Positions 7,845 to 27,593 of a DNA stretch of 31,572 nucleotides are shown here, piece after piece. The notes beneath the pieces are model-generated. The model saw nothing but the letters and a program-made list of their open reading frames with translations. It ran no database searches and had not been told where the DNA came from. Position 1 is the first letter of the stretch, and the number at the start of each line of letters is the position of its first letter. This DNA is from a virus, in the IMG/VR virus record IMGVR_UViG_3300035204_000383, positions 1-31,572 of that record; one strand, 5' to 3'. The translations under genes were made by a program, and so were the position numbers.

Positions 7845-10748
7845 CTATTCCGTTTCCACTAAATTCTCCAAAGGCGCACTATCACCGAATAACTTGCTGT
7901 ACTTAAACTCATAACATCTTGACTGTCCACTTGGCACTGTTGAACCAGAGCCAATATAGCACTTGCTACTGGGAGACCCGTCGGCGGCATATATTAAGTA
8001 TCCCCCCTTGTCGAGTTCTTCCTTCATCGTCGTTGGTGCTACTCCGTGATCCTTACACCAGTCGTTGACTGTCTTAGCAGTTATGTAGACTTTCTTATCC
8101 GCTATGCACACTCGACCGACAGCAGGGGCTCTAAGTATTTCCATAGGCGTTTCCTTTGTCTTGGCTCGAGCGTCGTTAAAATGTTTTGTAATGATGAGTC
8201 GTCCCGGAAGCGTAGATATGAACTGAGCTATATGTTCGCCAATATCTGTGTTGGTTTCCTTACGGCTTTCACGCATACGTTCCACTTGGTCTACCGCCCA
8301 TTTCTTCATACCCTTAAGGTCAAATAAAATCAAACCTAGTTTCTCCGCGATTTTGCCAGCAACTAACGCTGTAACAATTGTATCCCTGTAAAAACGCTCT
8401 TTGTTATCTTCATTCGACTGAGGGTTAAACTTTCCTCTAGCCGCTGTAATTTGTCTGCGTACCCAATCCTGGTTCTTGATTAGGAACCTAATGAAAGGTC
8501 TACAGGCTTCACCATATACATTGTCCATGTGGTTTTCTATAAATGCCTGTGTTATGTCTGGGAAAACATCAGTTCTATAATGTTCTGGAAGTTGTACTTC
8601 AAAGAAACGTAGTTGAGTTGCCTCAACTCTATAGCCTGCTGGTAGTTTACTTATACTATCATGCAGGGAGTCATTTGATGTAATGAAACTATTTTTATAC
8701 CACTGACCACCAACTGTAGCGAACCTACCACTAGAACCAAGGCGTTCTTTGTCCCGTCCATTCGCAAGTGCATAACCTGTTCGTGTTAATTCGTCCGGTA
8801 GCCTACCTGAAAACTCGTCTAATAGCATAGGCAATGAACCCATTATAGCAATACGCTTGATTACAGCGTTCAGTGTGGCACCTTGCTCACCCGTTTGGCG
8901 TTCCATATATTCTGGGTTTCCATAAAAACCACAAGCAATTTTCGCCGCCGTCGATTTGCCGGTACCGCCGTGCCCGGTGAACGCAAGCGGTAAACCATGC
9001 CAATTTGACGAACCCATTAATTCCACAAGGACTGAACCCATTGAATGGCATAACGCAAACTGAAACGGCTCCGCTCCAGGCCTGTTATACAACTTATCTA
9101 TATTAGAAATCCATTCATCAATAGTACCTGAAGTACCAAAGTCCAGTGCAATGTCAGTTGGTATGTCTGGGTCGCATAGTACTTCTTCCTCATCTTTTAG
9201 GGTAATCTTTTTGGTTCCCATAATAAAACCTTTCCTATCTTCTGTCCAACCAAATTGACTATACGTTTTTGTTTCTATCCTCCACGCTTGGAGAGTTTCA
9301 ATTAAACCTTCTGAAAATTCAGCCATATCGTTCCTCGCTTTTTGTGTTCTTACTAAAAATATCTCGTGTGCGGCTAAAGTCTTAGCCATTAAATCAGTAG
9401 ACGCTAATTCTGATGTCGGCATAAAGAATTCTCGCCAGTTACCATTCTTCTCTTTCGCTCGCCAGTGTACCACCCACGTACCTTCTCTGTCTTTAATTCT
9501 GTTGATGGGGTAGATGAACGACCGACAAAAGGCCCGCCAGCGAACGACGCCGTCGTCATCCTTGATCGACCGAGACAACGCTTTACCATTCCATCTGTAA
9601 CCCCTGGTAGGCCAGTAAGGGATAGTCTGTCCTTCTACTACTGGTACTGTGCTTTGTGGGACTGAATCATCTGGTTTCGTTTCTTCTGCTACTGACTCAA
9701 CTTCCTCTTTATGCCCAAGTTGAATAGAAAACTTGCACTTACTTGCCATAGGACAATCTTTCTTACATCCTATAATAGAGTCCATCTCAACGCAAGAAGT
9801 CGGGCCAACTACCCAATCGTTAATCTTTGCCTGTGTTTCTGCTCTACTGTACCCCTCGTGTCCTTTACTCCATTCGTGAATAATCTCTTCACCGTTCTCA
9901 CAGTGTTTAACAACGCCAATCGCTCTGTGCCAATGAGGTTCTGATATGTCACCTTTTTTATCACGGAACTCACGGATAGCGAAACAGTGTTCAGCAATTA
10001 AGTTGGCGTCTGCCGTGGGGTAGTCCCCTAACGCCGCTGCGAATGGATTGGGAATTGCCTTGTTTTTAGTTGGTACGGAAATGACTTTATTCGCTTTGAT
10101 ATACTCTTTAAGTCTATTTCTAATAGTTTCCAGAGGGTACTGTTTGCCTTTCTTTATTAGTTGTACCTCTACTGGTGGATTCTTTTTACGGTTGTGTGTG
10201 CCGACTGGTCGTAATATTCTAGCGCTATCCATGTCGACGGCTCTATCTGCTTTAACCCCCAGATGAGTCGTGACATTGCGTTTGAGTGCTGATAGTTCTT
10301 CCCAAGTTTTCTTGTCTATATCTTGGTCTAATGAGAAGTAACAATGATAGCCCCCGCCTGACGAGGTAATGGTAGGTGTTAGTCTTAGCACTGTTGCAAG
10401 CCTAATTATGTCTGCTAGTGCTTCCTTTCTCGTCGTGTATTTTTTAAGGTCGTCCGAGCCCACGTCGAAGTCGTCGTACAACGAACGACAGGAGGAAACA
10501 TTCTCTTGAGTTCTTATACGTTTCTTGCCTTTATCTTCGTCTAAGTACCAACCATTGAAGGAGTTAACTGCAAAATAAACAGTTTCGCCTTCGTCGTCGA
10601 AAGCTACAGCAGCTGTTGCCGCTTCTTCGCTAGTGTTATAACTCTTATACTTAAACCAAGTTCCACCGTTTTTCGTCGGTGTAGCTAATGCTAGTAGTTT
10701 GCCCCCCTCGTCTGGCAGTATTAAGTCTAAAAATTGTTGAGTCCCCAT
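7845..10748 (-). CDS. Primase-helicase fusion (AEP-like primase plus DUF927-like ATPase)
   Basis: The 967-residue protein has an N-terminal archaeo-eukaryotic-type primase pattern. It shows YDDFDV with acidic residues D93 and D95, SGGGYHCYF with H135, and ARILRPVGTHNRK at 176-188. A cysteine cluster at C319, C328, C332 and C338 probably binds zinc. The C-terminal part has a P-loop GHGGTGKST (592-600) and Walker B LLDEF (642-646) in a DUF927-like helicase domain. It most likely primes and unwinds DNA at the phage fork with the polymerase at 16.2 kb. ATG 10748 has only a weak SD (AGGGA). It follows the SSB candidate after a terminator, so it may have its own promoter. Confidence 0.85.
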   Translation of the reverse strand: MGTQQFLDLILPDEGGKLLALATPTKNGGTWFKYKSYNTSEEAATAAVAFDDEGETVYFAVNSFNGWYLDEDKGKKRIRTQENVSSCRSLYDDFDVGSDDLKKYTTRKEALADIIRLATVLRLTPTITSSGGGYHCYFSLDQDIDKKTWEELSALKRNVTTHLGVKADRAVDMDSARILRPVGTHNRKKNPPVEVQLIKKGKQYPLETIRNRLKEYIKANKVISVPTKNKAIPNPFAAALGDYPTADANLIAEHCFAIREFRDKKGDISEPHWHRAIGVVKHCENGEEIIHEWSKGHEGYSRAETQAKINDWVVGPTSCVEMDSIIGCKKDCPMASKCKFSIQLGHKEEVESVAEETKPDDSVPQSTVPVVEGQTIPYWPTRGYRWNGKALSRSIKDDDGVVRWRAFCRSFIYPINRIKDREGTWVVHWRAKEKNGNWREFFMPTSELASTDLMAKTLAAHEIFLVRTQKARNDMAEFSEGLIETLQAWRIETKTYSQFGWTEDRKGFIMGTKKITLKDEEEVLCDPDIPTDIALDFGTSGTIDEWISNIDKLYNRPGAEPFQFALCHSMGSVLVELMGSSNWHGLPLAFTGHGGTGKSTAAKIACGFYGNPEYMERQTGEQGATLNAVIKRIAIMGSLPMLLDEFSGRLPDELTRTGYALANGRDKERLGSSGRFATVGGQWYKNSFITSNDSLHDSISKLPAGYRVEATQLRFFEVQLPEHYRTDVFPDITQAFIENHMDNVYGEACRPFIRFLIKNQDWVRRQITAARGKFNPQSNEDNKERFYRDTIVTALVAGKIAEKLGLILFDLKGMKKWAVDQVERMRESRKETNTDIGEHIAQFISTLPGRLIITKHFNDARAKTKETPMEILRAPAVGRVCIADKKVYITAKTVNDWCKDHGVAPTTMKEELDKGGYLIYAADGSPSSKCYIGSGSTVPSGQSRCYEFKYSKLFGDSAPLENLVETE

Positions 10749-10768
10749 TATGTCCCTGTCTAAGTTGG

Positions 10769-10823
10769 TGAGAGAGGGTTCTTACCTCACAGTCTTGGGC
10801 CTCTGACATAGTCGCCTCTCTCA
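10769..10823. repeat. 9-bp inverted repeat upstream of the primase-helicase
   Basis: TGAGAGAGG (10769-10777) and CCTCTCTCA (10815-10823) are exact complements 37 bases apart. They sit between the SSB terminator and the primase start. In RNA this would be a leader hairpin; in DNA it could be an operator. No convincing -10/-35 pair is visible here. Confidence 0.4.
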
Positions 10824-10825
10824 TT

Positions 10826-10848
10826 GAAAAACCGGAGCGTACTCCGGT
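10826..10848 (-). terminator. Rho-independent terminator after the SSB candidate
   Basis: Read on the - strand, ACCGGAG and CTCCGGT make a 7-bp stem with a TACG loop (10831-10848), followed directly by TTTTTC. It lies 7 bases after the SSB gene and would reduce read-through into the primase-helicase. Confidence 0.8.
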
Positions 10849-10854
10849 CTGATT

Positions 10855-11730
10855 TTAGTCGTCGAAGTCTAAGTTGTCTAAAGCCTCATCGACTTCATCT
10901 TCCTTAACTTCTTTAACTTCCTTCTTAACAGGTTTAGGTTTTTTCGCTTTTGCTTTCGTTTCTGCTTTTTCCGTAGGTTTAGTTTCTCCTACTGGCTCAA
11001 CACTAAGACTGGGTTTTTCAGTTACACCAGTAATTTGGTCTATTAAGTCCCCCTCGTCCACAAGCGTCTCTTCAATTAAAGCTAGTTCATCCTCTTCGAC
11101 GAAACGAACGGCTTTGAATGTTAGTGCTGGATGTGCCACGTTGTAATCGAAACCAACTTTTGTAACAACATACTGAGGTTCTACACCACGCTTAGCCAAT
11201 TGAGAACCATATAGCCCTAACGTTTTAAGTGTCGCTGCAGGAACTCTAAGTAGCATAGGGTCGTTAAGCATACCTGCCGCTGACACACATAGGCGCATAG
11301 AATCACCACATAATTTACCTTTAGCCCCACTGTCTGTTATGCGTGAACCCCATTGATTGTGAGGGCAAACATTACATTTGTTGGACTGTGGTTCTTCAGC
11401 ATCAGTTGCTGGTGCCACGCCATTATTAGAATAACAGGTAGGTTTAGCAACACTACCTTCTACAAAACCACTGTCGTAATAGACTTTTGATTTATTAGGA
11501 TTGACAGATAGTATAACTACCTCTAATGACGCCGCCGGTTCGTCGTCGGTACCTACCTTGGTGACAAGTTGTCGTTCGTCGCCACGCTGGATATGAAATA
11601 CCTTACCCTTAATTGAAATTACCGGAAAACCACCTACCGCTACTGCCGCAGCAAACAGGTTGCTCGTCTTAGTCTTACCTTTCAGGTGAGCGGGTAGCCC
11701 CCCTGACTTTATTTGAACCATGTCGCTCAT
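10855..11730 (-). CDS. Probable single-stranded DNA-binding protein, 291 aa
   Basis: The N-terminal 200 residues contain a cysteine set (C-N-V-C, then KGKLCGDSMRLC) that could hold zinc. The last 80 residues are a Lys/Pro/Glu linker ending in an acidic tail, DNLDFDD. Phage and bacterial ssDNA-binding proteins use such a tail to recruit replication partners. The position beside the primase-helicase and other fork genes fits this role. The OB-fold itself cannot be confirmed by eye. The start at 11730 has GAGGT six bases upstream, just after the stop of the upstream gene. Confidence 0.6.
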   Translation of the reverse strand: MSDMVQIKSGGLPAHLKGKTKTSNLFAAAVAVGGFPVISIKGKVFHIQRGDERQLVTKVGTDDEPAASLEVVILSVNPNKSKVYYDSGFVEGSVAKPTCYSNNGVAPATDAEEPQSNKCNVCPHNQWGSRITDSGAKGKLCGDSMRLCVSAAGMLNDPMLLRVPAATLKTLGLYGSQLAKRGVEPQYVVTKVGFDYNVAHPALTFKAVRFVEEDELALIEETLVDEGDLIDQITGVTEKPSLSVEPVGETKPTEKAETKAKAKKPKPVKKEVKEVKEDEVDEALDNLDFDD

Positions 11731-11742
11731 ATTAGTACCTCG

Positions 11743-12144
11743 CTATTTACGTCTAAAATTAATAACCTGCGTTTCGCCCCAGTCCACACCAGGAGGCAAG
11801 TCCTTTGTCTCAGCCTTGAATTGCTCCACTGCCACCTTACTCACTCGGCGCTCTAACATTTCCCAAGCACCTTCTTTCTTGATAAACTCAAGTAAACTAT
11901 CCCAGTCAGAAACTCTTGCTGACGCTCTTACTGTTCTGTAAGCAGTTCCAATACCTCTGGCAGATACATTATCTATACCACGTTTGTTGAAACGCTTTAG
12001 GAATTCAATTTCTATTTTTTCCTGCTTTTCTTTATCATCTACGTCGTCCAGTTGGTAGTCCGCTTTACGTCGGGCTCTACGGTCACGTAGGGCTATGAAC
12101 AATTTCACCAATGTGGCGTCGTCCATTTCACTCGCTTTTGCCAT
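11743..12144 (-). CDS. Conserved-looking replication-block protein, 133 aa, function unknown
   Basis: The protein is hydrophilic, predicted mostly helical, with many Arg/Lys/Asp residues and no membrane segment or recognised motif. AGGAG lies seven bases before ATG 12144. It overlaps the HTH gene upstream by 17 bases and is followed after 12 bases by the SSB candidate, so the three are probably one transcript. A role with the SSB is a guess from position only. Confidence 0.7.
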   Translation of the reverse strand: MAKASEMDDATLVKLFIALRDRRARRKADYQLDDVDDKEKQEKIEIEFLKRFNKRGIDNVSARGIGTAYRTVRASARVSDWDSLLEFIKKEGAWEMLERRVSKVAVEQFKAETKDLPPGVDWGETQVINFRRK

Positions 12145-12322
12145 CTATGCTCTCCTTTTTATTAAGTAACCAATTATTGATATCTTCCTCGTCCCATCTT
12201 AGAATCTTTTGGGACACCCTAATGGGTGGGGGGAAGCTACTATCTCGTCTGCGTAGGGCTGGTAGTGCCCCTTTAGTAATGCCTAATTTTTCCGAAACTT
12301 GGTTCGGTTTAAGTAATTTCAT
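12128..12322 (-). CDS. AlpA/excisionase-like helix-turn-helix protein, 64 aa
   Basis: The sequence MKLLKPNQVSEKLGITKGAL then RWDEEDINNWL matches the MerR-like HTH_17 / AlpA pattern: an HTH followed by a W-x-x-x-D-I-x-x-W segment. Such proteins are small DNA-binding regulators or excisionases. It is the first gene after a strong sigma70-like promoter that carries a palindrome, so self-regulation is plausible. The nearest SD-like AAGGA is unusually far (about 12 bases) from ATG 12322. Confidence 0.75.
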   Translation of the reverse strand: MKLLKPNQVSEKLGITKGALPALRRRDSSFPPPIRVSQKILRWDEEDINNWLLNKKESIDGKSE

Positions 12323-12362
12323 ATGAGTACTATTTCCTTTTAGTTGAGTTCGTATAGATGTA

Positions 12363-12391
12363 ATACTACACTAAATTTAGAGTGGTGTCAA
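12363..12391 (-). promoter_or_regulatory. Sigma70-like promoter with embedded palindrome
   Basis: On the - strand a perfect -35 TTGACA (12391-12386) is followed by a 17-base spacer and -10 TAGTAT (12368-12363, 4 of 6 matches). The spacer contains the 10-bp palindrome CTAAATTTAG (12371-12380), well placed for a repressor. The -35 overlaps the end of the helicase gene. It drives the HTH gene and probably the next two genes. Confidence 0.7.
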
Positions 12392-13962
12392 GAAATAACT
12401 TCACCTCTGCTCGCTTTTATTTCATCAAGCAACGCACCCTGCATTTTCTGCTTGTTTTTGAGCCTTGAGTAAATCCTTTTTTCGACTTTTGTACCCTCAA
12501 GCATGATAACAAAATTGTTCATTTTCTGTCCCGGTCTGTTAATTCTACCGTTGGCTTGTTCAAATATCTCATTAGAGGTAACGCATGAATACCAAATAAT
12601 GGTACTAGCCGCCGTCAACGTCAAGCCATGGGACATGGCACCCGGCTGAGCGACGATAACTCTCAATCGCTTCCCTTTTTGGAACTCACCGAATATACGG
12701 TCACGCTCTGATTTCTTCACTCGCCCATAAATAGTTTCAACCGTGAAGTCCTTACGCAGTTCATCTGCCACCATTTTGACGGAGGATACGTAGGGAACGA
12801 ACACAATAACTTTACCCTCTGCTGATTCAATGATGGCTCTCGTCTCTTCTATACGGGGGTCAGATGGGATGGTGAACTCTGTACCGTCGTCGGCGTACAC
12901 TACCCCGCATGCGATTTGTATCAACTTACCCATCTTGACTGCCTCATTGACTGCCGTTATATCTCCGTCGTCCGCTTGAGTCTGTAACTTAATCATCATC
13001 TCTTTATAGGCTTTGGCTTGTTCCTTGGTTAAATCAACGAGCCGCGTTTCATACATAATAGGTGGTAAGTCTATACACTCGTCCCTGGTAAATCTCACCG
13101 ACGGCTGCATGATTTCCTTTACAACTTCCGTCGCTCCGGGCTTAGGAATCCAAGTGAATTGACTCAACTGCCTCATAACCTGCATCTTAAACCTATTGAA
13201 ATATGGTGGCACTTTCTCTGGCACTAGCATCTTGCATTGCGCCCAAGCATCTGTTGGTGCGTTAGGTGTGGGCGTTCCAGTCATTCCCCAGCACGCACGT
13301 TTTTCTTTATGTTTATTCACTACTGTATTAATAGCTTTCCATCTATCTGTACTGGCGTTGCGAGCGCACTGTGCTATTTCATCTACTATAATTAAATCTA
13401 TGTCTTGTCTTTGTCGCAGTGCTTTCTCTACGATGGACACCCCGTCGTGGTTTATTATGTATATATCTATGTCATGTTGCTTCAACAGTTTCAGTCTTTT
13501 CTCTCTAGTGCCGTGAAGTACAGCGCATGTCAAATGAGGAAAATGATTGAATATTTCATCTGCCCAAGTCCTTTCTAGTGTAGATAAAGGTGCTATAATT
13601 AATGCTTTGGTTAGTTTACCTAACTGTTTCAGGAAGTCATACGCCCATAGCGACGCTAGTGATTTACCAGTTCCCAGTTCACTTAAATTGAATGCTCTGC
13701 TGTTAGTTGTGAGGAACGCCGCTGCGTCTTTCTGTGCTGAGAACGGTTCAAACCTTCCAGGCCAGTCATAATGGTATCTAATGGGTGATGGTGCGTCATG
13801 TCCTAAAGCGCGCAAGGCTCTTGTTTCGTCGAGACGATGGGGTACAGCTACGTAATCTGCACCATTCGACTTTACTAGTTTTGCCGTTGGTATTACGTTT
13901 AGAACTCGCTCTGGTTCTTTAAGTTTTAGCAGTAACGCTTTTTTCTTTTCCCAAACTAACAT
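12388..13962 (-). CDS. SNF2-like superfamily 2 DNA helicase/translocase, 524 aa
   Basis: Ordered SF2 motifs are visible: motif I ELGTGKS (95-101), Ia APLSTL, motif II DEIA (194-197), motif III TGTP (228-231) and motif VI QANGRINRPGQ near 469-479. The RPGQ ending of motif VI is typical of SNF2-family phage helicases. It probably remodels or unwinds DNA during replication or recombination. GAGG lies about eight bases before ATG 13962, and the gene overlaps the end of the DUF3310 gene by 44 bases, suggesting coupled translation. Confidence 0.88.
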   Translation of the reverse strand: MLVWEKKKALLLKLKEPERVLNVIPTAKLVKSNGADYVAVPHRLDETRALRALGHDAPSPIRYHYDWPGRFEPFSAQKDAAAFLTTNSRAFNLSELGTGKSLASLWAYDFLKQLGKLTKALIIAPLSTLERTWADEIFNHFPHLTCAVLHGTREKRLKLLKQHDIDIYIINHDGVSIVEKALRQRQDIDLIIVDEIAQCARNASTDRWKAINTVVNKHKEKRACWGMTGTPTPNAPTDAWAQCKMLVPEKVPPYFNRFKMQVMRQLSQFTWIPKPGATEVVKEIMQPSVRFTRDECIDLPPIMYETRLVDLTKEQAKAYKEMMIKLQTQADDGDITAVNEAVKMGKLIQIACGVVYADDGTEFTIPSDPRIEETRAIIESAEGKVIVFVPYVSSVKMVADELRKDFTVETIYGRVKKSERDRIFGEFQKGKRLRVIVAQPGAMSHGLTLTAASTIIWYSCVTSNEIFEQANGRINRPGQKMNNFVIMLEGTKVEKRIYSRLKNKQKMQGALLDEIKASRGEVIS

Positions 13963-14161
13963 CGTCGTTAACCTCGATCAGTTTCTCTAAGTAATGTTGC
14001 GCCTTGTATAAATCATCAAGGCCTCCTTTTTTCTTGTGGCGAATTATATATTTAATGATATTGCCCTCGAGGAAGTTGAGCCTATTCGCTAATATAAAAT
14101 CCCACGGTTGCATTTCAGTCTGGTAATGGTTACCGCTGACCTGCCTATCGTTCGCATCCAT
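13919..14161 (-). CDS. DUF3310 family protein, 80 aa
   Basis: The pattern HYQteMQPWDFIlaNrLNFLEGNIIKYIiRHKkKgGldDLyKAqHYLEkLI is the signature of DUF3310. This family is common in phage replication blocks and includes relatives of T7 gp1.7, which acts in nucleotide metabolism. The biochemical role here is not shown by the sequence. GGGAGA precedes ATG 14161 by six bases. The gene directly abuts the HNH-like gene and overlaps the helicase. Confidence 0.8.
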   Translation of the reverse strand: MDANDRQVSGNHYQTEMQPWDFILANRLNFLEGNIIKYIIRHKKKGGLDDLYKAQHYLEKLIEVNDDVSLGKEKSVTAKT

Positions 14162-14434
14162 TTACTTTCTCCCTTTCTTATATACCTTCGGGTGTTTGCT
14201 CCGCCACCCTCTATTTGCTTTTCGGCTAAGCACTGCAGTGTTTGAATCTTTTCCGCTGCCGCCTTTAGCAAGCATTACTTTGTGGTGTACATCTCTACCA
14301 TCGCCTTTTCTAACCTTGCCAGCTGCAATCGCACGGCGCCTTGCTCGGTTTTGAAGTACCCTTTTGGCTTGTACACTCGGCCTTTTGTTATATGCCGCTT
14401 TCGTTCTTAGCGACTTAGCTGATGTCTTTGGCAT
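14162..14434 (-). CDS. HNH-like small basic protein, 90 aa
   Basis: The protein is very basic at its N-terminus. It then has DVHHKVMLAKGG and SNTAVLSRKANR, spaced like the beta-beta-alpha metal site of HNH endonucleases with the final His replaced by Asn. No zinc-binding cysteines are present. It may be a compact nuclease or only a DNA-binding relative. GGAGGT precedes ATG 14434, inside the VRR-NUC gene, which it overlaps by 20 bases. Confidence 0.65.
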   Translation of the reverse strand: MPKTSAKSLRTKAAYNKRPSVQAKRVLQNRARRRAIAAGKVRKGDGRDVHHKVMLAKGGSGKDSNTAVLSRKANRGWRSKHPKVYKKGRK

Positions 14435-14714
14435 TTATTACCTCCTTAACTTGTTCAACATCGTCAACTACAATAGCAATACCTAACGCTTTATTAATAC
14501 CTGCGATTTCTCTATCCTGGTTTGCCGTTGTGTTCTTTATCTTTCCTGGTGGTTTAACTTCAAAAGCCAGAAAATGACCTTTGTAACATACTAATATGTC
14601 AGGGCAACCCACTCTACCCATACCGTTTGATACTGGCATATAATACCACGCACCAGTAGTTGCTAGGTACTCCTTAACTTTCTTTTTTACCTTACCTTCT
14701 GGTGTCATGCCCAC
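14415..14714 (-). CDS. VRR-NUC domain endonuclease, 99 aa
   Basis: The pattern GrVGCPDILVCYKGHFLAFEVKPP is the VRR-NUC core: the catalytic Asp of PD, then E-x-K after a short strand. Stand-alone phage VRR-NUC proteins act as structure-specific or Holliday-junction nucleases. The start is GTG 14714 with AAGGA about ten bases upstream; an in-frame ATG at 14708 is the alternative but is farther from the SD. The 86 bases upstream are AT-rich with no clear promoter. Confidence 0.82.
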   Translation of the reverse strand: MGMTPEGKVKKKVKEYLATTGAWYYMPVSNGMGRVGCPDILVCYKGHFLAFEVKPPGKIKNTTANQDREIAGINKALGIAIVVDDVEQVKEVINAKDIS

Positions 14715-14800
14715 GGCAAATTATTCCTTTTATTATGTAGTAAATAAAACATACATGGTAGCTGATTTTGAATGCTACTCTATACAGTAAATTTTGTTTC

Positions 14801-16167: not shown

Positions 16168-16182
16168 AGTTTATCTCCTTGA

Positions 16183-16200: not shown

Positions 16201-16210
16201 GTTTACCTTA

Positions 16211-18339: not shown

Positions 18340-18342
18340 ACA

Positions 18343-18642: not shown

Positions 18643-18660
18643 AGTATCTCCTTTTATTTT

Positions 18661-18675
18661 AATATCGGCGATATT
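18661..18675. repeat. 15-base palindrome upstream of the winged-helix gene
   Basis: AATATCGGCGATATT, 7-bp arms around one central base. It ends 18 bases before the ATG, just ahead of the SD, and touches the stop codon of the upstream gene. Confidence 0.8.
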
Positions 18676-19361: not shown

Positions 19362-19372
19362 AATTGCTCTCC

Positions 19373-19915
19373 TTACTTTATTATATACGAAATAGATAAC
19401 AATGAACCACTTCTTATTAAATTAATTAGTTCGGCTCGTTTTATCTGCTCTTGTTCTTCTTGTGGTTTGAGATAGTCCTTTACAAACTTCTCCTTGTCTT
19501 TGTTACTGAACTCCTGTGGAATGCGTATGTGTTTTATGTCGGCAACTACTTTATCTTCTAGTTCGTTTAACCAACGCTCCTCGCCATACCCAAGTCTGCC
19601 CTGTTGCATTTTATATATTGCTGCCACATAGGCGATGGACTCCTCCAATTTGTCGGGTTTAATCATGTTGGTGGGTAAGTCAGAATGCCACCCCCAAATA
19701 CTTACCGTACTTAGTTCGTGGTGTTCTAAAAATTTCTTAATCCACCACGCAGTTTCATAACCACAGTGTGATACTCCTGTGTCAATTGCTTTACACACAA
19801 TGTTCTTCATTCGACCAGACCACCTACTGGTATCAAAATCGATTTCAACTCGTGCTTCCTTAGTGGCATAGTTTTTCGCCATACCTACTGCCTCACTAAA
19901 ATTATCTTGGTGCAT
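19373..19915 (-). CDS. Hypothetical protein, 180 aa
   Basis: No family recognised. The N-terminal half has conserved-looking aromatic residues (CGYETAWWIKKFL, SIWGWHSDLP) and the C-terminal half is a charged helix ending in a hydrophobic tail. AGGAGG precedes ATG 19915. A variant of the 15-base palindrome lies 21 bases upstream. Confidence 0.68.
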   Translation of the reverse strand: MHQDNFSEAVGMAKNYATKEARVEIDFDTSRWSGRMKNIVCKAIDTGVSHCGYETAWWIKKFLEHHELSTVSIWGWHSDLPTNMIKPDKLEESIAYVAAIYKMQQGRLGYGEERWLNELEDKVVADIKHIRIPQEFSNKDKEKFVKDYLKPQEEQEQIKRAELINLIRSGSLLSISYIIK

Positions 19916-19936
19916 TATTTCCTCCTTTCAGAAATT

Positions 19937-19951
19937 AATATCTGCGATATT
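19937..19951. repeat. 15-base palindrome variant, upstream of the 180-aa gene
   Basis: AATATCTGCGATATT keeps both 6-bp arms and differs only in the centre (TGC for GGC). It overlaps the stop codon of the upstream gene and precedes the SD of the next one. Confidence 0.75.
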
Positions 19952-20636
19952 ATTTAATATATAAAAAATCTACCGTTTCGCATTTGCGTGGTAGTTTGAA
20001 ACCCTTTTTTGCTACCATCTTAGTATCCATCGAGTCTTTGCTTATTTCAGCAACGATGTCCTCAGCCGATGAGTCGTGCCATTCGGGTTTCGCCTCGTAC
20101 TTGTATCCTTCCCAGTACCTATGCCTATCTTCCTTTATACGATAGATGGCAGTTATAGCGACTCTTACTTCCTGTAATGTCTTGAGTACTTTTTTCTTGT
20201 ACTCGTTGTCGGGGGTGTATATACACACCATCGTTAATGGGATAGGTCGTCGCTTTGCCCCTCCCCAATACGCAGTTGCCTGTTTTACATGTTCCCCTAA
20301 TGAAGGGTGTAGGTTCTTTCGCCAATTACTACCCAGTCTTATTGCAACTTTCTGTTCGTGGTCTATTGCTAGGTGTTGTTGCCCTTTCCAATTCAACCAC
20401 GCTTTCTTGCAGAGTTCTGTACACTCCTTATCGAGATACAAATCGGGACATTTGCTGTCAGAAGTCGTCACCAACTGTATCCCGAACCTTTCATACATAT
20501 GTCGGTCGTCGGGGTGGGGGTGTCCTATTACCATCACCTCGCCTGTTTCAAATTCCACTATGTTCCTATTCCATGCGTGGAACGACTTAAACCTGTCCCA
20601 CGCTCTACCATCATTGTTAAATTCAAATGTTTTCAT
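19950..20636 (-). CDS. Hypothetical protein, 228 aa
   Basis: No family recognised. The N-terminal part has FETGEVMVIGHPHPDDRHMYERFG and the centre has LAIDHEQKVAIRLGSNWRK. It is rich in Trp, Tyr and His and has no membrane segment. GAGGAG precedes ATG 20636, which overlaps the end of the Cys-rich gene by 14 bases. It contains a CGACTCAT motif at 20069-20076. Confidence 0.65.
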   Translation of the reverse strand: MKTFEFNNDGRAWDRFKSFHAWNRNIVEFETGEVMVIGHPHPDDRHMYERFGIQLVTTSDSKCPDLYLDKECTELCKKAWLNWKGQQHLAIDHEQKVAIRLGSNWRKNLHPSLGEHVKQATAYWGGAKRRPIPLTMVCIYTPDNEYKKKVLKTLQEVRVAITAIYRIKEDRHRYWEGYKYEAKPEWHDSSAEDIVAEISKDSMDTKMVAKKGFKLPRKCETVDFLYIK

Positions 20637-20808
20637 TATTGCTCTCCTCTATTAAAATTTCGCAAAACCCCTTAGAGTTTCGCACTAAAGTAAATTCGCA
20701 AAGTCCATATTCCTTATCATCTTCCTGTACTTGGTATGTAGGACATGCTTTTTGCCACACAGGGAAGTACTTACACCTGTGTTTGTCTTGCAACGGTTTC
20801 TCGCTCAT
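20623..20808 (-). CDS. Small Cys-rich protein, 61 aa
   Basis: Four cysteines (C12, C22, C37, C49) in a 61-residue protein suggest a structural metal site, though the spacing fits no standard zinc finger. GGAGG lies just before ATG 20808. It is followed by a 14-base overlap with the next gene. Function unknown. Confidence 0.6.
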   Translation of the reverse strand: MSEKPLQDKHRCKYFPVWQKACPTYQVQEDDKEYGLCEFTLVRNSKGFCEILIEESNNENI

Positions 20809-20817
20809 AACTCCTCC

Positions 20818-21093
20818 TTACGGTTCATCATCTTCCCAATCATATTCGCCTATCGGCGTCCTTTTGTCATTACTTCGACCACATGCACAACCAATACTAG
20901 GTCTTAGATGTCCATCATCATAAGCACAATCATCACAAACTATTTCTTGGTCGTGGTCTACTTCAAACTCCGACTTCATCTCAATATGATAAGTCTTGAA
21001 CACTTTGGGTTCTTTGTGGAGTATCCGTTCAGCAGTTAACTTTGCTACTGCTTGTTCCAACTCTGCAATTTTTTCGTCTTTATCCTTGCTCAT
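20818..21093 (-). CDS. Small protein with coiled coil and zinc-ribbon-like cysteines, 91 aa
   Basis: The start is placed at ATG 21093 because GGGAGA lies six bases upstream; a start at 21114 lacks an SD. Residues 1-25 form a charged coiled coil. Later CDDC and CGCACG-type pairs (C-x2-C ... C-x-C) could bind zinc. The tail is acidic. The start overlaps the upstream gene by 14 bases. Function unknown. Confidence 0.6.
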   Translation of the reverse strand: MSKDKDEKIAELEQAVAKLTAERILHKEPKVFKTYHIEMKSEFEVDHDQEIVCDDCAYDDGHLRPSIGCACGRSNDKRTPIGEYDWEDDEP

Positions 21094-21304
21094 TATCTTT
21101 CTCCCATTCAGCAAGTTTAAGTTTCTGGATTACTAACGAGGCGTCATATTTCGTCATTGGTAAAGTGTGTTCTTGTCCAAGTTTTAGAGACAAATAGTTA
21201 ATAGTCCATAGTTGTTTAGAAGTCGCAGGTTCTGGTTCTGCGTCCATTTTCTTTAACATATGATTTGTGTACCCAAATTGAATACTTTTCTTAAGTTTTT
21301 TCAT
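21080..21304 (-). CDS. Small protein with ATSKQ motif, 74 aa
   Basis: ATSKQLWTINYLSLKLGQ then LTK-like MTKYDASLVIQKL resembles the short helical repeats (DUF3072-like: KQ...I..L.....lTk.eAs..I) seen in small phage and actinobacterial proteins. The match is modest. Its ATG overlaps the stop of the VWA gene as TAATG, so it is translated by coupling and may serve the same process. Confidence 0.6.
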   Translation of the reverse strand: MKKLKKSIQFGYTNHMLKKMDAEPEPATSKQLWTINYLSLKLGQEHTLPMTKYDASLVIQKLKLAEWEKDNEQG

Positions 21305-22455
21305 TACTCCTCCTCTTCAAATGTAATAACTTCCCCGAAAGGGAACTCTTCTCTATCAGTCGTTAACCACACAGTATCAACTGCTGGTTCATCTAACTCG
21401 TTTTGGTCGCCCCACCCATCTGTGAAATAGATAAGACACTCTATCTCACCTGCATAGGTGGTTAACCATTTGAACACAGGCACAAACGAAGTACCCCCAC
21501 CACCTACTGGTTTCAGTACTATGGGTAGGTCGTCGGGTGTGTACTCAACTTCCCCACCTATGTCGTAGTCGCAATACAACACAGTTACCTTCTCGGGTAA
21601 ACAAGTTTCCAATATCCGATTGATGTGTGCGTTGAAGTACGCTAACTCGTTACTACTCAAACTTCCCGAAGTATCGACGGCAATCACAACCTCACCCATT
21701 CGGGGTGTGTAGTCATAACCTGGCAAGTACAAACCCTGTCCGACGAAACGACGATTAGGTCTGTTCCATGAGTAACCATCTTTGACTTTGGAAGTCATAT
21801 ATCTCTCTAACTTCTCATGCCACGGGGTTACTACATTAACCATCTCATCTACTATTCTCTCAATAGACGAGGGTAACTTTCCAGTTTGCTTAGCAACTTT
21901 TGCTGATTGTATAGTTTCGATTTTTGCCTGTGCTTCTAGTTGGTGTATTTGAGAATCGTCTAATACTTGACCATTTTCGTCAACTATATCGCCGATATCT
22001 TTACCGATACCACCATCACCCATGTCGTCGTCGTTCTCGTCGTAAAGTTCTTCCGACGCATGGTGTCTGCCGTCGTCCATAGTAATGCCACCATCAATGA
22101 AGTCACCAACACCTGCATCTATCAGCGTGTCGTTAATGACTTTATCACACGCTACATTCCATGCTTCATGTTTTCGGTGCTTTCGCCTTAGTGCGTGAGA
22201 TAACATATAGTGCATTGCCTCATGTGCCATCAAGAACATTATCTCTTTAACTGTTAATGGTTCTACCCACGCAGGATTTAATATCATCTGACCTGTTGCC
22301 GACATACCTGCCGTTGGCACTCCATCACCATACTTTATAGGTCGCCTAGATACGGCAGTACCAAAAAATGGGTGGTCTAGTATCAGTAACGCTTTCGCCT
22401 TACCGACTTTTCTTTCGACCTCTGCTTGGTCGAATACTACTTCTGTATTACTCAT
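21304..22455 (-). CDS. Metallopeptidase-like plus VWA-like protein (DUF2201 type), 383 aa
   Basis: The N-terminal domain carries HEAMH (78-82) within LMAHEAMHYMLSHALR, a zincin HExxH, with a downstream helix rich in Asp and His. An acidic linker (about 138-165) follows. The C-terminal VWA-like domain has the MIDAS motif AVDTSGS (259-265), then a GGGGTSF loop and FTDGWGD. This architecture is known as DUF2201 and is usually paired with a MoxR-type AAA+ ATPase; such an ATPase gene lies at 24.7 kb in the same operon. The pair may remodel or cleave a target protein. AGGAG precedes ATG 22455, with the palindrome 19 bases upstream. A degenerate palindrome copy lies inside the gene at 21986-21998. 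Confidence 0.85.
   Translation of the reverse strand: MSNTEVVFDQAEVERKVGKAKALLILDHPFFGTAVSRRPIKYGDGVPTAGMSATGQMILNPAWVEPLTVKEIMFLMAHEAMHYMLSHALRRKHRKHEAWNVACDKVINDTLIDAGVGDFIDGGITMDDGRHHASEELYDENDDDMGDGGIGKDIGDIVDENGQVLDDSQIHQLEAQAKIETIQSAKVAKQTGKLPSSIERIVDEMVNVVTPWHEKLERYMTSKVKDGYSWNRPNRRFVGQGLYLPGYDYTPRMGEVVIAVDTSGSLSSNELAYFNAHINRILETCLPEKVTVLYCDYDIGGEVEYTPDDLPIVLKPVGGGGTSFVPVFKWLTTYAGEIECLIYFTDGWGDQNELDEPAVDTVWLTTDREEFPFGEVITFEEEE
21986..21998. repeat. Degenerate palindrome copy inside the VWA gene
   Basis: ATATCGCCGATAT retains the 13-base core of the family but both outer bases differ. It codes for D-I-G-D-I in an Asp/Gly-rich linker, so it may be a chance match. Confidence 0.4.
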
Positions 22456-22921
22456 CTTGTTCTCCTTTTGAATTAATATCGGCGATATTTGTTCTTGAGG
22501 GCATATTTTCTTCGTTGACTCCCGACTCTATGGATAGACAATAATCAACTTCGCCGTAGTAATGTACTTCGACATCACCTGTCTCCTCACCTACCCTTGC
22601 TATTTCCATACACAATGATGTGTTACTAAACGCATCTTCCCACACACTCGCTAGGTCATTCCAGTAAGCAATCTCGGGATATGAGTCGTACCACTTGATT
22701 TCCTGCCAAGACCACTTCATCATAGTCTGCCCTTTACCATAGTCGTATACATCTCGTTGACCGTTTAACCAATTGCCAATCGGTTCACTCAAAGGGTGAT
22801 GCTTTATATTTGAGGAGGAAAATCCTTTAGGTAGACCTTTCAGTCGTTCCGTTGCAACGAATGCAGTAACCTCATCTTTGTCACCATAGATAACTATGGT
22901 GACTTGACTTCGATAGCCCAT
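22448..22921 (-). CDS. Conserved-looking protein starting MGYRSQV, 157 aa
   Basis: The N-terminus MGYRSQVTIVIYG looks like a family of short phage proteins with an alpha-beta fold, but function is unknown. It is rich in Trp and Tyr. GGAGGT precedes ATG 22921. The C-terminal residues NIADIN are encoded by the 15-base palindrome (22475-22489). The same peptide ends another gene at 25784, so this tail probably reflects a DNA element rather than protein need. It overlaps the VWA gene start by 8 bases. Confidence 0.7.
   Translation of the reverse strand: MGYRSQVTIVIYGDKDEVTAFVATERLKGLPKGFSSSNIKHHPLSEPIGNWLNGQRDVYDYGKGQTMMKWSWQEIKWYDSYPEIAYWNDLASVWEDAFSNTSLCMEIARVGEETGDVEVHYYGEVDYCLSIESGVNEENMPSRTNIADINSKGEQDE
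22475..22489. repeat. 15-base palindrome upstream of the VWA gene
   Basis: AATATCGGCGATATT, perfect copy, 19 bases before the ATG of the VWA/metallopeptidase gene and inside the 3' end of the preceding gene. Confidence 0.8.
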
Positions 22922-22922
22922 A

Positions 22923-24002
22923 CTATACCTCCTTATCCAACATTTTACTAATCAGCACATTTAGATAGTTTTGTGCTAATTCCCGAGAACTCTGATTGCT
23001 ACGCAATAAAGATTTATTACCCGATAGTGTTGTTCCTATATCAAGCAATTCGTCAATCTTATGTTGGACATCGTCGTCGTCGCTGATGTTAATTTTGTTC
23101 ATGCGTTCTGCTACTTCAACGAGATTGTCGACTAGCGTATCCCTGAACACCGAACCATCTTTACCTATCGGTACTGACAACTTCTTCAACGCACTTTCCA
23201 AAGGTTTCACCATTGACTTAATCACATGATTAGTCGCATTCACTTCAGCATCATCTATCTGCTGTTGCAACGACGCTTTGTCCTCGTCGGATATGCCTAC
23301 ACGAAAATCACCAGTAGTTGGTACTGGCATATATCGTATATCTATTCCAAACCTTGAACGCAACTCGTCGACATCGGGATAGTCCTCAGCATTTGCTAGG
23401 TTGGGTTTCCCTTTTGCCTGTGCAATTTTTTCAAGTCGGTCTAAATCTGCCTTGACTTCGTCGTCCCAATGCGTACATAAATCGTCGATAGACCTGTATG
23501 CTTCATCAACTAAAGGTCGCAACGCACCTGTGAACTCCATATAGTGTTCTATGTTGAGCATATCCACTCCAGTAGTCCACGGCACAGTATTGTTCTTTAC
23601 ATAGTTATAAACCTCTGTGAACTTGCTTATTGTTTCTTTCACTCGGTTATCCCTACCCTCGAACAGGTGCTTGTTAACATTTCCTGCACCATACTCCTTA
23701 CTTTCTTCCTTGTCTAACTTGTATGGTGAGTACATATTACGCTTGACACTTATCAAGACTGCCTTCTCATCAAGTCCTTTAACCTTGATAGGACTATTTA
23801 CATATTCCTTTACTTCGTCTAACTGTTGTTGCAACTCGGTACTGACAACTTCATCTATCACCTCCGATGAGTCGTGAGGTACGCCTTGTCCAGTCGATGG
23901 TTCGATTGGCGAAGATACCTCGTAGTCCTCAACTAATATCGGCGATATTTGTTCCTCACTATCAATCGCCTTTTGCATAGCGTCTGCTAATGTTTTATTC
24001 AT
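22923..24002 (-). CDS. DUF3150-like protein between MoxR and VWA genes, 359 aa
   Basis: The protein is soluble, helical and acidic. SVKRNMYSPYKLDKEESKEYGAG and YMEFTGALRP, followed by coiled coils, resemble DUF3150 proteins. These sit beside CobS/MoxR-like ATPases and VWA partners in other phages; the assignment is tentative. ATG 24002 overlaps the upstream stop as TAATG. A perfect palindrome lies at codons 18-23 (23935-23949) and a CGACTCAT motif at 23867-23874. It probably acts as an adaptor of the MoxR-VWA pair; that is an inference from position. Confidence 0.65.
   Translation of the reverse strand: MNKTLADAMQKAIDSEEQISPILVEDYEVSSPIEPSTGQGVPHDSSEVIDEVVSTELQQQLDEVKEYVNSPIKVKGLDEKAVLISVKRNMYSPYKLDKEESKEYGAGNVNKHLFEGRDNRVKETISKFTEVYNYVKNNTVPWTTGVDMLNIEHYMEFTGALRPLVDEAYRSIDDLCTHWDDEVKADLDRLEKIAQAKGKPNLANAEDYPDVDELRSRFGIDIRYMPVPTTGDFRVGISDEDKASLQQQIDDAEVNATNHVIKSMVKPLESALKKLSVPIGKDGSVFRDTLVDNLVEVAERMNKINISDDDDVQHKIDELLDIGTTLSGNKSLLRSNQSSRELAQNYLNVLISKMLDKEV
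23935..23949. repeat. 15-base palindrome near the start of the 359-aa gene
   Basis: AATATCGGCGATATT, perfect, about 53 bases downstream of the ATG at 24002. It is the only operon copy placed just inside a coding start rather than ahead of one. Confidence 0.75.
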
Positions 24003-24229
24003 TATTCTTCTCCTTCATAAAGTAACCACCCGTCACACGAGTGGGGAAAATCTGCGTCGGGTATGCAACGCAGTTGGTCTGTGTGTATTGCTTTATCGGG
24101 TAGGGGTTGCAAGGTGTTCAACGAACACCCCCCTAGCGACATTACCCATACAATAATGATACTTCCCATTATGAAAACTGCTAAGTATCCTGCTACCATA
24201 AGTAACCAGTAAAGTTGTTTATCTATCAT
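24002..24229 (-). CDS. Small lipoprotein-like membrane protein, 75 aa
   Basis: A membrane segment runs from about residue 7 to 32 and is followed by SLGGC, a possible lipobox with Cys35. The remaining 40 residues include two more Cys (in RCIPDADFPHSCDG). It may be an outer-membrane-directed lipoprotein or a simple signal-anchored protein. It overlaps the upstream gene by 4 bases and the downstream gene by one base. A lysis role (spanin-like) is possible but unsupported. Confidence 0.6.
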   Translation of the reverse strand: MIDKQLYWLLMVAGYLAVFIMGSIIIVWVMSLGGCSLNTLQPLPDKAIHTDQLRCIPDADFPHSCDGWLLYEGEE

Positions 24230-24741
24230 AAGTTTTCCTCCTTAAATCTTTGCTGGATTGTAGGGATATCCTTTTCGCTGATAAATTCCCAAAGGATATC
24301 GAGAGACCTTGCTTTCTGATAATACTTCTCTCTCTTAGAAGTTAATGAGGTAGTTGACTTTTCTGACTTTTCGTGCATAGTAAAGTCTATCTCTAAGTCC
24401 TCCAACCACGATTCGATTTCATTTTTAATAGAATTTTTCAACTCTAGGTCAGTAGGGTTTTCGTGGTCTTTCCAACTTGTATGGTGAGCGTTCCAAAAAT
24501 CAGAAGAGATATCCTCCTTATTACTGTCTATATCAAATGTCAGTAACAATTCCATATGGTTATCCCCTCGTTTCAACTCACTTATGAAACCTTGAGGTGG
24601 GTTTTTGCCGTTGTAACACCTCTTGGAATGAAGTGTGAGATTTAAGCGTTTTCTCTCGCCTGTTAATTTATGCCAACGCTTATTTATCTCTGTATTGACA
24701 TACCTTTCCCACGCATTTTTTATTTGTTGTTCAGTCCACAT
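24226..24741 (-). CDS. Hypothetical protein, 171 aa
   Basis: It is a basic-acidic mixed helical protein with no recognised motif. The segment MELLLTFDIDSNKEDISSDFW may be a beta strand followed by an acidic helix. GGAGG precedes ATG 24741 by seven bases, one base after the MoxR gene stop. Its position inside the MoxR-VWA set suggests it belongs to that module. Confidence 0.65.
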   Translation of the reverse strand: MWTEQQIKNAWERYVNTEINKRWHKLTGERKRLNLTLHSKRCYNGKNPPQGFISELKRGDNHMELLLTFDIDSNKEDISSDFWNAHHTSWKDHENPTDLELKNSIKNEIESWLEDLEIDFTMHEKSEKSTTSLTSKREKYYQKARSLDILWEFISEKDIPTIQQRFKEENL

Positions 24742-24742
24742 A

Positions 24743-25756
24743 TCAATTTCCTCCCATAAATATGTCTTTATTGTGTAATGCCCAGTCGATAAAATCTTTC
24801 GTCTGTTGCAGTTTAGGGTGTAATCTCAGGGCGTCTTGTACATACACCATCTGAAACTCTTTCGGCATACGAGAAATATAAATCATATCTCGTGAAAATG
24901 CGTCTGGTTCAGTCGACATAGACAACGCCGTTGCTATCGCATACTTAACGGCAGGTTCTTCGGGTATCTCTATCTTGTCGGGTGAAAGTCTGATTGAATC
25001 AATGCTCGGCATCTTATTCATTAAGTCTTTCGCTGCTACCCATTCGGCTGCAGCACCTTCACCGACTTTCGCTTGGCATGAGTACATATATAAGTCAGTC
25101 GGTAAATCTCTTGGCACTTCCGTAAACAGTTGAGTCCATGCTCGTTGAGTCGGATTAACAGAACGATTAGCGTCAAAGTCATTGAGCAGTTGTGGTCGCA
25201 GTCTTATGAACGCTATACCTATCGGGTCGACACCATTAGTCATTGCCCACTCGCACCAGTCGTCAAGTGATGTTTCCATCTCGAACTCGTACATTCTATT
25301 AGATAAATGACTAAGCAGTTGTTTCGCACCTGCCCTATCCTCTACCCTGTTACCTGTAACAAGAAAGCGAACTTCATCATCTAACTTGAATGTCGGGGTT
25401 GTTCTCTCTAAAAGAAACCCTGCTGCCCAAGTTTGATGGTGTATTGATGATTGAGGTAGTTCCTCTAAGACTATAAGTCCTGCACCAGTACCTTCCCGAA
25501 ACTGATAGAACATCTCGGTTGGATTGAATTGTGTCTGTCCGTCGGTTACTGATGGTACACCTGTAAAATCTACAACATCGTGGTTGTTGACATGCACGAC
25601 AAGTATCCTATCTTCCTCGATACCTAACTGTCGCCCTACCTCTATACAGGCGTCTGACTTTCCCATTCCAGGTTTTCCCTTAAAAAATGGAACTGCTTTT
25701 GGTGCTTTCTTTAATATAGATGTCGTTGCATCTATCACTTGGTTTATTGATGGCAT
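24743..25756 (-). CDS. MoxR/CobS-like AAA+ ATPase, 337 aa
   Basis: Walker A is GKPGMGKSDA (28-37). Walker B is GLIVLEELPQ, with Glu in place of the usual Asp. A sensor-1-like VTGNR and arginine-finger region SHLSNRMYEFEM follow. This is the MoxR pattern; such ATPases act with VWA proteins as chaperones or metal-insertion machines. Its likely partner is the VWA/metallopeptidase protein at 21.3 kb, three genes downstream in the same orientation. AGGAGG lies four bases before ATG 25756. A palindrome variant lies 51 bases upstream. Confidence 0.88.
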   Translation of the reverse strand: MPSINQVIDATTSILKKAPKAVPFFKGKPGMGKSDACIEVGRQLGIEEDRILVVHVNNHDVVDFTGVPSVTDGQTQFNPTEMFYQFREGTGAGLIVLEELPQSSIHHQTWAAGFLLERTTPTFKLDDEVRFLVTGNRVEDRAGAKQLLSHLSNRMYEFEMETSLDDWCEWAMTNGVDPIGIAFIRLRPQLLNDFDANRSVNPTQRAWTQLFTEVPRDLPTDLYMYSCQAKVGEGAAAEWVAAKDLMNKMPSIDSIRLSPDKIEIPEEPAVKYAIATALSMSTEPDAFSRDMIYISRMPKEFQMVYVQDALRLHPKLQQTKDFIDWALHNKDIFMGGN

Positions 25757-25783
25757 ATGCCCTCCTTTTGTTATGGGTTTGCG

Positions 25784-26185
25784 TTATTGCCCACCCTCTG
25801 GTGAATTAATATCTGCGATATTATTTCTTTTTCTATAAAGTATCACTCCACATCTATCAGAGCAATAGTTCCTGTACCCACCACAATATATTATTGCGTT
25901 AAGTTCGTCTGTGGTTAACCATTGAATATCGTCTACTTCTGGTTCTGCCATAGTCTGGTGTTTGCTTGTAGTAGGTGAGTACTTATCGTCATTACCGAAC
26001 CACATCTCACATTGAAAGTCGTACACATATATCGGGAAGTGTTCCCCATACGAATATACGACATACAAGTCCTGTCCTTCAAAAGAGTTGGGTGGTTCTT
26101 TAGCGAACACCGTGTTGGTGCTGTTTTTAAATGGCAGACGATATGTAGTGTATTCACTCATCTGCTTTAGTGTAATCGTATCCAT
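25784..26185 (-). CDS. Conserved-looking phage protein, 133 aa
   Basis: The core YVVYSYGEHFPIYVYDFQCEMWF and NDDKYSPTTSKHQ has the look of a conserved family found in several phages and bacteria, but its function is not known. Cysteines near the C-terminus (YCGGYRNYCSDRCG) may bind metal. The final NIADIN is encoded by the palindrome variant at 25808-25822. ATG 26185 follows the upstream stop after 2 bases, with only a weak SD, so translation is probably coupled. Confidence 0.7.
   Translation of the reverse strand: MDTITLKQMSEYTTYRLPFKNSTNTVFAKEPPNSFEGQDLYVVYSYGEHFPIYVYDFQCEMWFGNDDKYSPTTSKHQTMAEPEVDDIQWLTTDELNAIIYCGGYRNYCSDRCGVILYRKRNNIADINSPEGGQ
25808..25822. repeat. 15-base palindrome variant upstream of the MoxR gene
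   Basis: AATATCTGCGATATT, the same central variant as at 19937. It lies in the 3' end of the 133-aa gene and about 50 bases before the MoxR ATG, farther than the other copies. Confidence 0.72.
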
Positions 26186-26187
26186 AA

Positions 26188-26343
26188 TTACACCACCATT
26201 GGTTCATAATGATGAAACCATAAGGCGATATACACAAGACAGAATGTCATAGTGTAATAACATAAATACTTGGTTGCCTTAATGATTATCATTAGTTCAG
26301 TAGGTTGTACCCTTACTGCTTGAATGTTATAACTGTTTCTCAC
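26188..26343 (-). CDS. Small membrane protein with GTG start, 51 aa
   Basis: GTG 26343 has AAGGAGG four bases upstream and reads MRNSYNIQAVRVQPTELM, then a hydrophobic Cys/Tyr-rich helix (about YLCYYTMTFCLVYIALWF), ending HHYEPMVV. The adjacent ATG is followed at once by TGA, so GTG is the only useful start. A perfect palindrome ends 11 bases upstream. It is two bases from the next ATG, so it may mainly couple translation. Confidence 0.6.
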   Translation of the reverse strand: MRNSYNIQAVRVQPTELMIIIKATKYLCYYTMTFCLVYIALWFHHYEPMVV

Positions 26344-26354
26344 ATTACCTCCTT

Positions 26355-26369
26355 AATATCGCCGATATT
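26355..26369. repeat. 15-base palindrome directly before a Shine-Dalgarno
   Basis: AATATCGCCGATATT on the + strand, so the - strand reads the GGC-centred form. AAGGAGG follows within two bases, the closest of all copies; a bound protein or hairpin here would cover the ribosome site. Confidence 0.8.
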
Positions 26370-26375
26370 TGTTTT

Positions 26376-26409
26376 TGTCTCAATTTCGGTCATTGCCCTA
26401 TGAGTCGTG
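26376..26409. repeat. 34-bp direct repeat, copy B
   Basis: It matches copy A (26691-26724) at 30 of 34 positions in the same orientation, 315 bp away. It contains CATTGCCC and ATGAGTCGTG. The pair brackets the TTGTCTTA-rich locus. Confidence 0.7.
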
Positions 26410-26594
26410 CCGTTGTAATAAGTCGCTTGAATAAGACAATCTAATAATGTCTTAATCCTTTGGTAACAACGAATTAGTTTGTAATAAGACAATAAGACAC
26501 AAAAAAAGAGAGACGACAAGTCAGCAGTGAAAAATAGTGTTTTTTCATCAAATCTAATACTAACTTTGTTCATCTCTCTATACATTTATTTATA

Positions 26595-26618
26595 TTGTCT
26601 TATTGTCTTATTGTCTTA
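26595..26618. repeat. Three tandem TTGTCTTA repeats
   Basis: Exact 8-bp units at 26595-26602, 26603-26610 and 26611-26618, in an AT-rich setting. They form the centre of the wider TTGTCTTA/TAAGACAA cluster. Confidence 0.85.
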
Positions 26619-26690
26619 ATAGGCACTTGCAACCCCTACTGTTACTGCGTTTTGTAATAAGACAAAGTTGTGTGATATTGTCTTAATCGC

Positions 26691-26724
26691 TGTCTTAATG
26701 TCCGTCATTGCCCGATGAGTCGTG
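26691..26724. repeat. 34-bp direct repeat, copy A
   Basis: Partner of copy B (26376-26409), with four mismatches. It contains the full ten-base core of the one-orientation CACGACTCATCGG motif. Confidence 0.7.
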
Positions 26725-27586: not shown

Positions 27587-27593
27587 TGCGGAA

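Follow-up and report, generated by a model that had tools for sequence, protein, structure and literature searches.

A strand-exclusive word in the replication genes of a metagenomic phage and its possible role in a strand-specific nicking system

Ten copies of one short word lie in a single orientation across the replication genes of IMG/VR virus record IMGVR_UViG_3300035204_000383, and they raise the question of what kind of signal such a word can be. The DNA analysed is a stretch of 31,572 nt, called the window below, which is part of a phage genome of about 60 kb organised like those of Pseudomonas phage Rollin and Rhizobium phage RHph_TM27A (TM27A). Judged from its sequence properties, the word is rather likely to be the recognition sequence of a strand-specific nicking system that acts through a phage nicking endonuclease, for which the best candidate is a 90-residue HNH-like protein encoded at 14162-14434 on the - strand. 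Elements of this kind are already known from a few laboratory phages.

The word in the window and in its close relatives

The 8-mer CGACTCAT has ten exact copies in the window, from 8194 to 26722, all on the - strand and none on the + strand, where 0.75 would be expected on both strands together and the largest count in 100 dinucleotide shuffles was 4. All ten share one further base, giving the 9-mer ACGACTCAT at 10/0 (copies on one strand/copies on the other, the notation used throughout). Every copy is on the sense strand of the replication or early gene block (7845-27333, - strand), which was delimited by gene calls and by PHROG and Pfam matches. Two copies are in the primase/helicase gene (8194-8202, at codon 850, and 10263-10271) and three in the PolA gene (16493-16501, 16864-16872 and 17637-17645, the last at codon 165), and the others are found at 20069-20077, 22681-22689, 23867-23875, 26400-26408 (within CACGACTCATAGG) and 26715-26723 (within CACGACTCATCGG), all on the - strand. 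The first-pass annotation had headed its entry with the full 13-mer CACGACTCATCGG as if this were repeated ten times; it has 4 copies in the window, and the remaining copies of the word vary at their edges.

All ten copies of ACGACTCAT are inside minus-strand genes and are read in three frames (RLI, TTH, DSS/DSY), and 400 synonymous-codon shuffles of the genes that carry them gave 0.34 ± 0.57 copies with a maximum of 3. Together these results rule out coding or codon bias as the cause of the word, and they bear out what had been noted at first pass about its number, its single orientation and its independence of frame. The motif word is the window's most over-represented strand-exclusive 8-mer and 9-mer by computation (log10 p -13.3), and the objection that comparable 8-mers might be equally frequent, raised in the same annotation, does not hold.

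Relatives were collected from IMG/VR in two scans, which found 46 loci. Across 33 contigs the motif is oriented 117 to 1, and in the close-clade contigs the word has one orientation only, in every contig. Relatives at 74-89% protein identity have it at about 50 distinct positions after homologous sites are merged, with the consensus kCWCGACTCATMRS, outside which nothing is conserved; since the context beyond 14 bases is random at the 50 positions, an extended repeat or mobile element is ruled out. Computed in this way, the word is both conserved and subject to drift between clades. Most positions are not common to the relatives, which have no copy at 16493-16501, a copy therefore gained in the window phage, and none at 16864-16872. 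Two exceptions are kept through synonymous bases: primase codon 850 (GGACGACTCATC, with the codons CGA CTC) in 14 of 17 readable relatives, including some at only 58% protein identity, and the PolA codon 165 copy in 12 of 15 close relatives. Conservation at synonymous sites, which had been proposed as a check, is thus seen at two positions. Replication-block DNA (201 kb) has 75 sense copies and 0 reversed, and structural-block DNA (199 kb) has 5 and 1.

The word is real and functional at the level of DNA, where it probably acts as a polar signal. In this respect the first-pass view of a strand-biased DNA signal stands, whereas its list of candidates (primase start sites, Chi, replication polarity, uptake sequences and RNA binding) falls short, the best-fitting one, nicking sites, being missing from it. 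It also knew of no described phage element with this sequence, and we found none with exactly this one; the kind of element is described, however. A second strand-exclusive word, TAGACCAAG, occurs in the family contigs at 16/0 and is weaker than the main motif.

Nicked phage genomes and cognate words

Nicks in phage genomes were recognised about fifty years ago, and for most of these phages, to our knowledge, neither the enzyme nor the purpose is known. Strand-specific nicks are described in phages T5, phiKMV, tf and Rembedalsseter (PMC3517423, PMC11780129). Pseudomonas phage tf has 14 ligatable nicks, all on one strand and all at TACT/RTGMC, and its near-match sites are reported to be restricted to the nicked strand (PMC3517423); in the tf record, 12 mapped nicks are on the replication-block sense strand and 2 are antisense in the structural block. 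Phage Rembedalsseter has 13 nicks of unknown function at WACTRTGAC on one strand, and the word is enriched in 61 relatives, where it clusters in one region of the genome and favours the coding strand, though not exclusively (PMC11780129). The nicks of phiKMV-like phages (CGACxxxxxCCTA/CTCCGG) and of T5 (R/GCGCRGG) are likewise strand- and site-specific and of unknown function, but their motifs differ. The three sites of phiKMV (NC_005045; 6314, 13986 and 24128) that fit the published nick consensus lie inside annotated phage promoters.

Three sequence features of phages with single-strand interruptions recur in the window clade, namely a strand-exclusive word, an uneven distribution towards the replication half and near-sites on one strand only. 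As in tf, LUZ24 and Rembedalsseter, the word is asymmetric, nine bases long and present in 9-18 copies, on one strand and in any frame. With tf and LUZ24 the window clade also has in common the use of the replication-block sense strand, the few antisense structural sites, the purge of opposite-strand near-sites and an HNH-like gene of the same family, whereas it differs from tf in the word, in the strand of an RTGA core relative to the replication genes, in the type of primase and in nearly all other genes.

This likeness was also reached by a blind scan, in which the strand-exclusive 9-mers of each genome were ranked with no prior choice of word. The proven tf nick word TACTGTGAC, a positive control, ranked first (11/0, log10 p -16.4), as did the tf-cognate word in LUZ24 (7/0, log10 p -11.1). 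The top words reached log10 p -13.3 in the window, -15.7 in G006, -12.9 in TM27A and -16.6 in Alcaligenes phage QDWS535, and from -5.1 to -7.7 in the negative controls lambda, P22, N4, KPP25 and Rollin. In the replication block of TM27A the top 9-mer was, unprompted, GCGCACTCA; extended to GCGCACTCAY it stands at 9/0 with zero one-mismatch copies. Of the nine, 7 belong to the replication block and the other 2 are antisense to structural genes, so that the orientation of the word is fixed relative to the DNA strand and not to the genes. QDWS535 was chosen for its HNH-like protein and its motif was found only afterwards: GGTCGATCA at 11/0 and GGTCKATCA at 16/0, on the replication-block strand and with a spacing that grows from the early end.

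Sites in the replication and structural blocks number 12 + 2 in tf, 7 + 2 in TM27A, 12 + 1 in G006 and 15 + 3 in Bjorn. Within the structural block the choice of strand is independent of gene sense (2 sites in TM27A, 5 vs 1 in the window clade), and a density gradient from the early end runs in the same direction in nine genomes, being significant in no single one. The tf word is also carried by SE131 and Vp_R1. Several other words were set aside as weak or present on both strands (KPP25 CGTACTCA, 6/0, and CTCA-type words of G013 and G014), as resembling Shine-Dalgarno sequences (the top words of CVT22 and ICP2) or as in-frame coding (CW02 TGATGACTT). PQ867841.1, a member of the Zobellviridae from an oyster metagenome, has ATGATMGCW at 13/0 together with an HNH-like gene, and its word resembles the TGATMGACC of QDWS535. 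Rollin (OR577172.1) has AMCGGRGAG at 10/0 without an HNH-like gene; this word is possibly related to ribosome-binding sites.

Near-sites, defined by one mismatch to the word, were compared with a null of synonymous-codon shuffling in the window clade, tf and LUZ24, and with a Markov null in a pooled set. In coding DNA of the window clade the opposite strand has 4 near-sites in the replication block (18.0 ± 3.8 expected) and 2 in the structural block (7.1 ± 2.8 expected), while the motif strand of the replication block shows no depletion (26 vs 24.6 expected). Opposite-strand near-sites number 1 in tf and 2 in LUZ24, with 9.0 and 8.6 expected, and pooling eight genomes or clades gave 36 vs 114 expected on the opposite strand and 118 vs 131 on the motif strand. 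The tf word applied to lambda, N4, KPP25 and GAP52 gave ratios of about 1 and no purge. Because the contigs within a clade share ancestry, the nominal significance is overstated, but the effect is found again in separate groups. Such a purge is expected if the word is cut, because nicks in both strands risk double-strand breaks, and it suggests that the cuts are made in vivo and affect fitness.

A candidate nickase and competing explanations

We infer that the DNA is nicked here, either in the motif-bearing strand or in its complement, and that the HNH-like protein is the cutter. A phage nicking endonuclease, most likely the 14162-14434 protein and perhaps assisted by a DNA-binding partner, would recognise the asymmetric (K)CWCGACTCATMR and cut one strand there, so that each genome would carry about ten localized single-strand interruptions, all on one strand and mostly in the early or replication half. 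The cut may fall just 5' of ATGAGTCG, that is, in the complement, if the tf geometry TACT/RTGMC is any guide.

The candidate was singled out by a comparison of genes between the groups. It is the only gene detectably common to QDWS535 and the window, G006 and TM27A (E 6e-18), and the only recurrent gene common to the window clade and tf. Orthologues are present in those motif-bearing contigs that extend over its locus and in TM27A, QDWS535, tf, LUZ24, Bjorn, SE131 and Vp_R1, as well as in Zobellviridae and phiEco32-like phages; none was found in lambda, P22, N4, T7, KPP25 or Rollin. In LUZ24 the gene is at 15622-15933 and in tf at 16129-16416. The alignment has R32, G39, D45, H51, G58, G59, N65, V68 and N74 invariant. 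An AlphaFold model (predicted local distance difference test score 83) has a helix-helix-beta-beta-alpha arrangement, with strands at 47-51 and 66-70 and a helix at 71-80; H51 ends the first strand, and the predicted beta-beta-alpha fold carries the invariant H51, N65 and N74 as a putative H-N-N/H catalytic set. Foldseek returned mostly HNH nucleases with weak E-values, among them the Gme HNH nicking endonuclease 4h9d.

Most natural nicking enzymes have recognition sites of 3-7 bp. Small phage HNH nickases have a precedent in that of phage Gamma, whose nicking domain is 76 residues long (PMC8845596). Like the Gamma gHNH (AC/CGR) and Gme HNH 4h9d, which set a precedent for strand-specific nicking, the window protein is predicted to be a small beta-beta-alpha-metal protein. 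It differs from both in having no zinc-binding cysteines and in its proposed sites, which are at least 9 bp and not 3-5 bp, so it may need a partner.

The family is found in hundreds of phages from several otherwise unrelated groups and is mostly unnamed in the records. It is quite possible, although we advance this only tentatively, that these proteins of about 90 residues are the nickase of nicked phage genomes, reading clade-specific words with a common RTGA core whose near-sites are selected against on the other strand. The core is suggestive, being seen in tf (TACT/RTGAC), the window (ATGAGTCGW), TM27A (RTGAGTGCGC) and QDWS535 (TGATMGACC), but relative to the replication genes it is on the other strand in tf.

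Several results weigh against nicking by this protein. Support for an HNH assignment is weak, as PF01844 and PF13395 were below the cut-off in orthologues and gave no match for the window copy, and the best Foldseek E-value was 0.05. The prediction of a motif in Zobellviridae with the HNH-like gene failed in part: the scan found no convincing strand-exclusive word in ICP2, CW02, CVT22, 1.208.B, 172P1 or VR7901. The gene likewise occurs without a detectable strand-exclusive motif in LAh_8, GAP52 and SU10, as in CW02, 1.208.B, 172P1 and VR7901, and contig G015 has it with only a weak motif, so the link between protein and motif is imperfect. No homologue was detected in phiKMV, though this phage is nicked according to the literature, and other kinds of nickase than the HNH-like protein must therefore exist. 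SE131 and Vp_R1 are not independent tests because they have many other genes in common with tf and LUZ24, and the early-end gradient in the window (6 vs 4) is not significant alone. Finally, the window sites come from metagenomic assembly, which cannot reveal nicks.

The word might instead serve priming or single-strand initiation, with an archaeo-eukaryotic primase (AEP)-type primase/helicase (7845-10748) starting the lagging strand at the word on the displaced sense strand. Residues 12-215 of the gene product match phrog_2478 and are AEP-like, a DUF927 part is also present, the word points the same way as a fork that moves away from the early end, and the replication enzyme of NrS-1, a PrimPol, depends in a strand-specific way on an 8-nt recognition sequence (PMC7102993). 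The NrS-1 genome has only two such sites, one per strand (PMC7102993), unlike the ten one-strand copies here. Moreover, the structural half must replicate too, yet it has 5 sites per 199 kb against 75 sense copies per 201 kb, and QDWS535 and tf have such a motif but no detectable homologue of the window primase, the tf primase/helicase matching that of T7 instead. We consider priming unlikely on these grounds. A processing or regulator-binding site CGACUCAU in the early and replication mRNAs would fit the 75 of 75 replication-block copies in sense orientation and the nearly free structural block; it is rather improbable given the two perfect antisense copies in TM27A, the two proven antisense nicks in tf and several intergenic copies, and near-sites in antisense would not matter to an RNA signal, yet they are purged.

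A purge is equally unexpected for stoperators, the asymmetric sites at which a bound repressor stops transcription in L5-like mycobacteriophages, because reversed stoperators are inert. Those of cluster A mycobacteriophages are many asymmetric 13-bp sites in one orientation, similar to the window word in length, number and orientation with transcription (PMC9283540), and a winged helix-turn-helix gene at 18343-18642 is found only in motif-rich contigs. However, stoperators are transcription-aligned, belong to temperate phages and occupy short intergenic spaces, whereas all ten window copies are inside genes, the word is oriented independently of transcription in the structural block, and no integrase or repressor was recognised; this explanation is very improbable. 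The same low standing goes to a Chi-like or other host-directed recombination signal, which would be short, asymmetric and strand-biased as the word is, but gives no reason for the opposite-strand purge and sits badly with a word that changes between phage clades and is largely confined to one gene block. A T7-like promoter has eight identical bases in its favour (ACGACTCA), and T7 promoters are also strand-exclusive 9-mers (CGACTCACT, 14/0). It is largely refuted and hardly credible, since no TATAGGG or A+T-rich melting region follows the word (the logo is flat beyond +3), the sites are inside genes, the TM27A version is without the T7-like bases, and no PF00940 single-subunit RNA polymerase was found in G006 or in complete TM27A by a search that detected those of T7 and phiKMV. 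CGACTCATAA may also resemble a tRNA anticodon arm.

Genome setting and significance

The replication block encodes PolA, a primase-helicase with the AEP-like N-terminus and DUF927, an SNF2 helicase and a PD-(D/E)XK nuclease. In the primase/helicase (967 residues) phrog_2478 and phrog_10514 match the N-terminal 215-245 residues or so. Structural genes are on the opposite strand and include a giant protein (143-7387), terminase (27944) and portal (29376). A divergent junction (27334-27593), recognised from the layout of open reading frames and the terminase and portal matches, separates the terminase/portal block from the early end of the replication block. The giant protein has 2414 residues, with a PLxRFG-domain match and no nuclease or polymerase match.

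The gene at 21304-22455 is an HNH endonuclease according to PHROG; Pfam gives a DUF2201 metallopeptidase plus VWA and not HNH, which rules it out as the nickase. With the ATPase at 24743-25756 it looks like a MoxR/VWA-type pair, found among the compared relatives only in the window clade and TM27A. The window also has 8 copies of ATATCGSCGATAT, a near-palindrome whose usual form is AATATCGSCGATATT, in genes and between them (17430, 18664, 21988, 22478, 23938, 26358, 26773 and 27354). Six close relatives have none; it is perhaps an operator or mobile element specific to the window phage. Clustered AATAAGACA and TGTCTTATT repeats in both orientations occur near the early end (26430-26656), and this word is over-represented family-wide.

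If the word is indeed the recognition sequence of a nicking system, nicking would extend to a metagenomic phage group and to Rhizobium and Alcaligenes phages, with new site sequences. The candidate nickase is small, easily expressed and deletable, which makes the nickase question testable, and should the protein be a strand-specific nickase reading 8-10 bp, it would be of practical use.

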